Source of the DNA: an uncultured Rubrobacteraceae bacterium
GTDB taxonomy: Bacteria; Actinomycetota; Rubrobacteria; Rubrobacterales; Rubrobacteraceae
DNA length: 64,000 bases
Direction of reading: 5' to 3'
Assembly (NCBI GenBank): GCA_902806085.1
Contig: CADCVH010000100.1
Span: 1-64,000, forward strand
The position numbers were made by a program, and so were the translations under genes. Shown here in pieces: positions 38,906 to 42,157 of the stretch; position 1 is the first letter of the stretch; each line of letters starts with the position of its first letter. The notes below the pieces were generated by a model. It was not told where the DNA came from and ran no database searches. It saw only the letters and a list, made by a program, of their open reading frames with translations.

Positions 38906-39247
38906 CTAATCGAAGAGGCCGGGTTGGAGCCCGCCGTCCCTCCGGAACGAGGCCGTGGACAGTTCCGGGAAGCGCCCGCGTTCGATCCCGGCCCGCCGGC
39001 AGGCCACGCCGAAGAGCCGCGACACGTGCTCCGCGTAGACGCCCCCGCCCTTCATGCGCGACCCGAAGTCGCTGTTCGTGGCGATGATGGAGCGGGAGTG
39101 GTCGCGCAGGTAGACGGTCTCGGGGCGGGGTTCGTCCCCGGTCTCGGCGGGGTCCGGCTCCGCCCCGATCTTCTCGAAACGGTTCTTCGGGTTGGCCGCG
39201 GCGCCCCGGCCGACGATGCCCGGGCGGGGCTTATCCCCGCCTTTCAT
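38906..39247 (-). pseudogene. Internally deleted radical SAM protein (PA0069/Rv2578c-like) remnant
   Basis: 113 residues in one open frame. Residues of about 12-60 (GRGAAANPKNRFEKIGAEPDP, VYLRDHSRSIIATNSD) match the N-terminus of PA0069/Rv2578c-family radical SAM proteins. Residue 61 onward (FGSRMKGGGVYAEHVSRLF, CRRAGIERGRFPELSTASF, GLFD) matches their extreme C-terminus. The intervening core of roughly 250 residues, including the CxxxCxxC iron-sulfur motif, is absent, so catalysis is impossible. The frame is intact across the junction. It lies three bases after the YjbR gene. A retained small protein cannot be excluded. Confidence 0.65.
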
Positions 39248-39622: not shown

Positions 39623-39742
39623 GAGGAGGCTCGCTTTCGTCGGTTGGATGGCTCGAAGTTAAGTCTAACGACCGACCGCGTCCCTCCAACTGGCCGTTTT
39701 CGGATACGGGGCGCCGGAAAGCGGTAGGATATTAGGCCGGAG

Positions 39743-42157
39743 TTGAAACGGACCAGGAGATCGCGGCCAGAGGCCGCGGGGAGGTTCGGCGAGGATGGGT
39801 CCGCACGCACAGAGCACCGCTTGCGCTGGGGCAAGGACCGCGCCTGCCTCCCTTTCGGGCCGGGGCCGTTCGCTGTGAGGCGGGCCGTCAGGCCGGCGGT
39901 GTTCTCCACTTTCGTGGTGCTGTTCGTTTTCGTGAGCCTGTTGCCGGTGGCGTGGGTCTTCAAGACGAACGCCGTGGGCAGGATCGTGAGCCCCGGGGAG
40001 CTCTTCGCCCCGCCGCCCGGGGTGTTCGCGAACGGCTTCTCGCTGCTGCCCTACGTCTCTATCCTCTACGATCTGGACTTCCTGCGGCCCCTGGCGAACG
40101 GGGTCATAACGGCCGCGACGACGGCGGTGGCGTGCTTTTTGATCGGCTCGATGGCAGCCTACGCCATCGCCCGGCGCGGGTTTCGGCCCGGCAACACCGT
40201 CCTTACGCTGGTCCTCGCGATGGGCTTTCTGCCCCCGCTCGCGGCCGTGGCGCCGCCGCTGGTCCGGTCGGCGGTCCTCGAGGTCTCGAACAGCCGCCTG
40301 GCGATGCTCTTTCCGGACCTCCTCGTCGCCCTGCCGCTCGCCATCTGGTTTCTCGTGGCGTATTTCAGGGAGCTTCCGGCGGAGCTCGGGGAGGCGGCCA
40401 GGGCGGACGGGAACGGGCCGGGGACCTTCTGGCGCGTCGTGCTGCCGGTGGCGACCCCCGGCGTGCTTACCACGGCCGTGCTCACGTTCGTGTTCGCCTG
40501 GAACCAGTACCTCTTCGCCCGGAACCCGGCCTTCGAGGAGAAGCTGCGGCCCGTGGCGGCGGTCCTCCCGGAGCTGCCCAACGACCTCCTGCCCGCGATC
40601 TCCGTCCTCGTCACCCTGCCGCTGGTGGCGCTCGTGCTGGGCTACCAGCGCCTCGCGGTGACGGGCTCCCCCTCCGTCGTGGACGGGGGAGTTGGCCTCC
40701 GCCCGGGGGGCCGGGCGAAGGTGCGCGCCAGGCGGGTCGCGCCCGGTGTCGCCACGGCCGTGCTGCTGCTCGCCCAGAGCTGGGCGCTGTTGCTGTTCCT
40801 GCGCCACGGGTGGGACGCGCTCGCCTTCCAGTTCCCCCTCAACTACGGGGAGGGGCCGCTGCTCGACCAGGCCGCGAGGCTCGCGGGATTCGAGAACGTC
40901 TACCCGGGCCCCCTCGGGGAGGCACCTTACACCATCTCCAACTATCCGCCGTTCTACCTGCTGGTTCAGGCCCCGTTCGTGTGGCTCTTCGGGCCGGAGT
41001 TCTGGTACGGGCGCCTGATCTCGCTGCTGAGCGTCGGCGCCACCGCCCTCTTCGTCGCCCTGACCCTCTACACGCTCACGAAGGACCGCATCGCCGCCCT
41101 GGCCGCCGGCCTGACCTTCCCGGCGATCCCCTACGTCCTGCGCTGGTCCTCCCTCGGCCGGGTGGACCTCCTCGGCCTCGCCCTCTCGTGGGCCGGGCTC
41201 TTCGCGGTGGTGCGGTGGCCGGAGAGGCGCAGGACCATGGTCGTCGCGGCCCTCCTGTTCGTCGCGGCCGTCTCGACGCGCCAGACCTACGTGCTCGCGG
41301 CCCCGCTCACGGCGTTCGTGTGGCTCCTGGTGCAGGGACACCGCCGCCGGGCGCTGGAGCTCGCAGGGGTCTCCTGCGGCGTGGGCCTCGCCTCGTTCCT
41401 CGCCCTGAACGTCGCCACCGACGGCGGGTTCTTTCTCCACACCGTCACCGCCAACATAAACGAGTTCCGGTGGGAGCGGGTCAGCTTCAACGCCTTGGGC
41501 GCCCTTCTCGCCTGCCCGCTGCTCCTGCTCGGGGGCCTCGCGTTCTTGTGGAAGGCGCCGCGGGACCGGGCGTGGTGGCTCGTGGGGCCCTACCTGGCCC
41601 TCAGCGTTCCCTCCGCCCTGCTCGTCGGCAAGGTCGGCTCCGACGTCAACTACCTGCTCGAGCTCTCGGCCGCGCTCTGCCTGGCGACCGGCGCCCTCGT
41701 GGCCTGGCAGCGCGAACGCCCGCGCCTGAGGGCGTTGCTGATCTCCTTGCTCGCCGTCCAGGTGCTCGCGCTCGCCCAGTCCTCGCTCGTCCCCTCGGGC
41801 CTGCAGGACTACGTCGTCGATGGGGAGCGGGAGGTCGCCCAGCTATCCAGGATCGTCGCCGAGGCCGACGGGCCGGTCCTGACGGACGAGTACATGGGCC
41901 TCCTTCCCCTCAACGGCAAGCGCATCCACCTCCAGCCCTTCGAGATGACCCAGCTCTCCCGCGACGGCTCCTGGAACCAGGACCGCGCTGTAAGGTCCAT
42001 CCGCCAGGAGAGGTACTCCGTCATCATGATGTGGGAGCCACCCTTCGCCAGGGACATAAAGCAAGACCGCTGGACCGACGAGATGATCGGCGCGGTCGAG
42101 GCCAACTACGAACCCGAAGAGCGTCTCGCGGACATGGTAGTGTACCGGCCGGAATGA
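39743..42157 (+). CDS. MalG-type ABC permease fused to a GT-C membrane glycosyltransferase
   Basis: One open frame of 804 residues. Residues of about 45-315 form a complete carbohydrate ABC permease of the MalG type: LLPVAWVFKTN, ANGVITAATTAVACFLIGSMAAYAIARRGF, and the EAA loop EAARADGNGPGTFWRVVLPVATPGV near residues 215-235. From about 330 the sequence becomes an ArnT/GT39-like polytopic glycosyltransferase: FPLNYGEGPLLDQAARLA, SNYPPFYLLVQAPFVWLFG, GRVDLLGLALSWAGLFA, TRQTYVLAAPL, then a soluble C-terminal tail. No stop or frameshift separates the two. No partner permease, ATPase or binding protein is nearby. TTG 39743 is assumed; GTG 39875 would also keep all helices. Confidence 0.75.
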   Translation: MKRTRRSRPEAAGRFGEDGSARTEHRLRWGKDRACLPFGPGPFAVRRAVRPAVFSTFVVLFVFVSLLPVAWVFKTNAVGRIVSPGELFAPPPGVFANGFSLLPYVSILYDLDFLRPLANGVITAATTAVACFLIGSMAAYAIARRGFRPGNTVLTLVLAMGFLPPLAAVAPPLVRSAVLEVSNSRLAMLFPDLLVALPLAIWFLVAYFRELPAELGEAARADGNGPGTFWRVVLPVATPGVLTTAVLTFVFAWNQYLFARNPAFEEKLRPVAAVLPELPNDLLPAISVLVTLPLVALVLGYQRLAVTGSPSVVDGGVGLRPGGRAKVRARRVAPGVATAVLLLAQSWALLLFLRHGWDALAFQFPLNYGEGPLLDQAARLAGFENVYPGPLGEAPYTISNYPPFYLLVQAPFVWLFGPEFWYGRLISLLSVGATALFVALTLYTLTKDRIAALAAGLTFPAIPYVLRWSSLGRVDLLGLALSWAGLFAVVRWPERRRTMVVAALLFVAAVSTRQTYVLAAPLTAFVWLLVQGHRRRALELAGVSCGVGLASFLALNVATDGGFFLHTVTANINEFRWERVSFNALGALLACPLLLLGGLAFLWKAPRDRAWWLVGPYLALSVPSALLVGKVGSDVNYLLELSAALCLATGALVAWQRERPRLRALLISLLAVQVLALAQSSLVPSGLQDYVVDGEREVAQLSRIVAEADGPVLTDEYMGLLPLNGKRIHLQPFEMTQLSRDGSWNQDRAVRSIRQERYSVIMMWEPPFARDIKQDRWTDEMIGAVEANYEPEERLADMVVYRPE

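Follow-up and report, generated by a model that had tools for sequence, protein, structure and literature searches.

In the window, the 64,000-nucleotide stretch of uncultured Rubrobacteraceae DNA analysed here, a single open reading frame joins a SugB-type ABC sugar permease domain to a complete GT-C membrane glycosyltransferase, and five congeneric genomes (85-90% identical) of Rubrobacter, a soil bacterium, carry the same in-frame fusion. On balance we favour reading the product as a clade-specific GT-C enzyme with a captured and repurposed permease, the latter probably acting as an assembly or substrate-handling module and not as half of an ATP-driven transporter. ABC permeases depend on an ATPase; if our reading is true, the fusion is an uncommon case of a transporter subunit turned to another use, with its ATPase interface altered and its helices kept, and the stand-alone sister genes within the genus offer a clean before-and-after comparison.

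Structure of the fusion gene

The gene and the parts discussed below are as follows (window positions, all on the forward strand):

39718-39731, forward: AAAGCGGTAGGATA block, 14 nt, promoter-like, upstream of both fused and stand-alone transferase genes
39743-39874, forward: upstream leader, open in frame, probably untranslated, with indels in G003 and G004
39875-42157, forward: fusion gene, GTG start, 760 aa, 82.9 kDa
39875-40660, forward: SugB-type ABC permease domain (aa 1-262), six predicted TM helices, supported by PF00528 and the SugB match
40364-40453, forward: EAA (ATPase-docking) loop (aa 164-193), one-residue deletion, LEEAA changed to LGEAA
40577-40588, forward: shortened TM5-TM6 extracytoplasmic loop, about nine residues fewer than in SugB in all five copies
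40661-40735, forward: linker (aa 263-287), basic and fast-evolving, in place of the SugB tail GLTAGAVKG
40736-41863, forward: GT-C glycosyltransferase membrane domain (aa 288-663), PMT_2, model pLDDT mostly 80-97
40850-40852, forward: Glu326 of YGEGP in the first extracytoplasmic loop, nearly invariant in fused, stand-alone and Chloroflexi relatives
41864-42154, forward: C-terminal soluble tail with an invariant QPFEMTQL motif

The frame 39743-42157 (+) contains no stop, and two Pfam domains exceeded their curated cut-offs within it. BPD_transp_1 (PF00528) matched residues 133-259 of the 804-residue reading (E = 4e-11; 43.3 bits against a cut-off of 26.4), and PMT_2 (PF13231) matched residues 402-548 (E = 7.5e-6), just over its cut-off of 26.1 bits with 26.7 bits for the whole protein and 27.9 bits for the domain alone. 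Third-position GC was 0.94, resembling that of real genes of the window. The uninterrupted frame, the two domains and a confident GT-C model bear out the original prediction of one frame encoding a sugar permease followed by a complete GT-C enzyme with a soluble tail.

The most likely start is GTG 39875, because a 5-base deletion in G003 and a 1-base deletion in G004, both upstream of it, break the frame and the aligned codon in G004 is ATG; the same indels rule out the TTG at 39743. An Rfam scan of the leader (39743-39874) returned no family above the gathering score, and a riboswitch or other known RNA leader was rejected, the sole match being a chance-level snoRNA far below that score. The linker carries six K/R against one D/E. 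GTG codons occur near it in the fused copies, with no single position common to all five, and a separate transferase may be made from such an internal start. A 12-base repeat, GTGGCACCCGCC, occurs several times at the linker and first transferase helix of the G004 copy (L025, about 2740-2800), giving 16 extra residues in frame.

Fused and stand-alone forms among relatives

A search of 40 relatives recovered full-length, stop-free matches in G006, G001 and G003, together with a match in G004 that fell into two pieces inside one open frame; a second search, of 39 genomes of the class, yielded no further fused species. The window's own genome is a draft of 133 contigs, a point in favour of a sequencing or assembly artefact. 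However, the identical in-frame junction in five genomes from different species, one of them (G006) an assembly of only two contigs, rules out an assembly error and leaves an artefact of any kind exceedingly improbable. No stop or frameshift was found at the junction, nor do the close relatives all carry the two parts as separate genes, these five having them fused.

Three congeners (G002, G005 and G007) carry the transferase without the permease, and their genes start shortly after the AAAGCGGTAGGATA block. Since the congeners with the transferase alone have the same block, comparative anatomy shows the permease as an insertion between the presumed promoter and the transferase coding sequence. 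The block presumably has a promoter role; it gave no match to a classical sigma-70 promoter. No ABC permease neighbours the fused loci or the transferase loci of G002, G005 and G007. The transferase of G051, from another Rubrobacteraceae genus, is likewise stand-alone and preceded by a stop (L062, G051:C416); it is apparently broken into two frames.

A search of the phylum and peptide patterns run over 84,980 species genomes gave further relatives of the transferase, mainly from Chloroflexi, and no permease lay ahead of the transferase in the Chloroflexi loci that were read. Long open frames lie upstream of the transferase at L079 and L085, and the G014 locus is cut at a contig edge. In several Chloroflexi relatives (L074-L083) the open frame runs to about 700 aa, the extra length lying at the C-terminal end. 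The class, phylum and 84,980-genome searches did not find the fusion architecture elsewhere, in agreement with the suggestion that a transporter-transferase chimera would be new; several of the genomes compared are incomplete drafts. No plasmid record covered 80% of the fusion query and no published account was found with the phrases searched.

Identity and origin of the permease domain

By its matches, the permease domain is nearer in type to SugB of the trehalose importer than to E. coli MalG. The best sequence match among solved structures was SugB 8ja7_B (E = 4e-27), and SugB structures also came first in a fold search with the permease model (8hps_B, E = 1e-9). The expected MalG-type permease was therefore right as to an ABC sugar permease and wrong as to the closest type. 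Separate alignments were used to model the full chain and the permease; the transferase half came out as a confident GT-C fold, whereas the permease domain reached a pLDDT of 68, a modest confidence, and was unreliable within the full-length model.

The fused permease shares six helices and the coupling-helix position with SugB of the mycobacterial LpqY-SugABC trehalose importer (PDB 8ja7, 7cad, 8hps). In contrast to that protein, it has no conserved C-terminal tail, its EAA loop is one residue shorter, its TM5-TM6 loop is incomplete, it is joined to an enzyme and no SugA, SugC or LpqY lies beside it. Its nearest relative within the genome is the canonical SugB of G000:C130 (L030; 39-40% identical), a contig of the window's own genome that encodes a MalK-type protein, a binding protein, SugA and SugB together. 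Unlike the fused domain, this SugB belongs to a full ABC operon, ends in GLTAGAVKG and is slow-evolving.

Within a phylum sample of 396 genomes, the fused permease was at most 45% identical to any permease, and the nearest were SugB-type genes of the window genome's family and a few from another family. The 396 genomes contained no free-standing permease any closer, and a recent derivation from one was rejected on that ground. The five fused domains formed one group in the tree (100/100) on a stem branch of 2.8 changes per site, compared with end branches of mostly 0.01-0.3 for the family orthologs; such a long stem would reflect either very fast change after capture or an unsampled source line.

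Permease features kept and lost

The EAA loop, predicted to be intact for ATPase docking, is shorter by one residue in all five species (5/5 fused copies, 0/32 compared permeases). EAA itself reads ETA in G004, and the EAA-X3-G core is recognisable in 4/5 fused copies. Because the ATPase-docking loop is not intact, the idea of a working transporter half that would follow from it is left unsupported. The tail GLTAGAVKG (G-L-T-x-G-A-V-K-G), which is conserved across SugB orthologs and almost as well in outgroup permeases, is missing in 5/5 fused copies. A set of 24 SugB orthologs shares 141 invariant sites; 70 of these are retained in all five fused copies, which taken alone indicates no greater divergence than between other permease subfamilies. 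Changes at positions that other subfamilies keep were found in parts of the tail, at the first acidic residue of LEEAA and at Ser83 and Leu135 (SugB).

The MalG tail sits in the MalK dimer interface beside the Q-loops, with which it can bond, and the EAA motif is a contact point for MalK (PMC3150292). The MalG scoop loop, to which the shortened TM5-TM6 loop would correspond, has a part in maltose hand-over (PMC8134467). Both ATPase-docking and binding-protein-facing features thus appear to have been lost from the fused permease, suggesting a loss of ATP coupling. Coupling could nevertheless survive the altered tail and EAA loop, since the MalG tail is reported to be non-essential for ATPase dimer formation (PMC3150292) and the EAA-X3-G core persists in most copies; some permeases may tolerate a change in the EAA loop. 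No dedicated SugA partner was found, with one close SugA (at least 75%) per genome where any was found. Neither a close SugA nor a canonical SugB was found in G001 and G003 (82% complete), perhaps simply because the assemblies miss these genes.

Selection and evolutionary rates

Pairwise dN/dS ranged over 0.13-0.30 in the permease, 0.10-0.22 in the transferase and 0.31-0.73 in the linker; canonical SugB compared between G000 and G006 had a value of 0.11. By this measure the fused permease domain is under purifying selection, and we therefore consider it maintained and more than dead weight. The alternative in the original prediction, a fusion of a stranded permease, came close to the mark, except that a permease under such selection is not simply dead weight.

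Constraint was uneven within the fused permease. TM5 was almost invariant and TM2, TM3 and TM6 were slow. The EAA loop evolved at 0.53 of the mean rate in SugB orthologs (slow) and at 1.45 in the fusion (fast). Where the fusion and canonical SugB occur in one species (three cases), 8/30 EAA-loop columns varied in the fusion and 0/30 in canonical SugB (Fisher P = 0.005), a contrast that weakened to P = 0.09 when weighed against overall variability. Relaxation of the EAA loop is thus suggestive, and the rate pattern leans towards relaxed ATPase docking.

The GT-C transferase half

The transferase half models confidently as a GT-C fold comprising numerous TM helices plus a soluble part, and Foldseek placed ArnT (5f15) first (E = 9e-8), followed by other GT-C structures. 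It shares this fold with the ArnT/PMT_2 enzymes (PDB 5f15, 5ezm), with PF13231 above cut-off, but is a remote relative (13% in the fold alignment) and has the permease added at its N-terminus. Much closer are the stand-alone Rubrobacter transferases (G005, G007, G002; 65-72% identical) and the Anaerolineae/Chloroflexi relatives (L074-L079, L083; 42-49%), both of which differ in having no permease ahead. The motifs YGE(G/A)P, SNYPP and QPFEMTQL are common to fused and stand-alone transferases, and Glu326 is a candidate catalytic acid/base. Charge distribution puts the linker on the cytoplasmic side of the membrane and the YGEGP loop on the outer side, which gives the chain a consistent topology. 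Bacterial GT-C enzymes use a polyprenyl donor that is flipped outward, normally by a separate flippase (PMC11127046), and by analogy the fusion transferase would move a sugar from a polyprenyl-linked donor.

Proposed function of the fused permease

Comparative anatomy indicates that the ancestor of a single Rubrobacter clade gained a SugB-type permease coding sequence, placed in frame behind the promoter and ahead of the coding sequence of a stand-alone GT-C enzyme. The product would be one membrane protein of about 83 kDa consisting of the permease, a short basic linker and the GT-C enzyme. Both ends of the permease helices would be cytoplasmic and the GT-C active-site loop would face outward, where, as the fold suggests, sugar would be transferred from its polyprenyl-linked donor. 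The transferase would be the working part. The permease, without a dedicated partner subunit, would be retained by selection, most strongly in several TM helices, and would most likely act as a membrane module for assembly of the enzyme, one conceivable way being for two copies of the permease to pair. Alternatively, the module would handle the substrate of the enzyme; neither role would involve ATP-driven transport.

The fused permease could instead remain a working transporter half. It would then pair with a MalF-type subunit, SugA or another, and share a MalK/SugC-type ATPase encoded elsewhere, so that a single polypeptide couples sugar movement to transfer. G000:C130 encodes SugA and SugB along with a MalK-type protein and a binding protein, the permease is under purifying selection and the EAA-X3-G core can still be recognised. 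However, the tail, the EAA-loop length and the TM5-TM6 loop are changed in 5/5 copies, no dedicated SugA was found and the incomplete fused genomes G001 and G003 yielded neither a close SugA nor a close SugB, so we regard this reading as unlikely. We give a similarly low probability to a self-contained flip-and-transfer protein in which the permease, as a passive conduit or part of a flippase, would deliver lipid-linked or free sugar to the active site. The topology is compatible with such a role, the constrained part of the permease consists of several TM helices and a separate protein normally flips GT-C donors (PMC11127046); yet stand-alone relatives do without the permease, and a lone permease half would have to pair with itself. 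A more specific idea is that an ABC-importer half, no longer tied to its ATPase, forms a built-in conduit or flippase that feeds the GT-C enzyme of the same chain, making flippase and transferase one protein; this is a little less probable still.

A further account takes the permease as a hitchhiker from a chance fusion, kept only because the transferase behind it could not be made or folded if the permease were disrupted. One origin in a single clade, fast stem evolution and degraded ATPase-facing parts fit this account, but the constraint on the permease is nearly that on the transferase, seemingly beyond the needs of folding alone, and TM5 is almost invariant; we consider it rather improbable.

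Gene neighbourhood

The genes around the fusion are those for YjbR, a radical-SAM remnant, an alkaline phosphatase, a GDPD and a Na/H exchanger. As predicted, neither MalF, MalK nor a binding protein adjoins the fusion gene in the window, the adjoining genes being unrelated. The one other ABC system identified in the window is an ABC-2 exporter of Wzt-like type, whose genes lie about 23-25 kb from the fusion. In G006, G003 and G004, a TrkA-like and a probable TrkH-like gene separate the fusion from the Na/H exchanger (L022:9155-11921, L024:3874-6652); they are missing from that place in the window. The radical-SAM remnant upstream of the fusion (38906-39247, reverse strand) encodes 113 aa in which the start and end of the gene are joined. 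Its counterpart in G006 (L022:3950-6058, reverse strand) encodes 702 aa with an internal LAGLIDADG-like domain, an insert that is possibly an intein.
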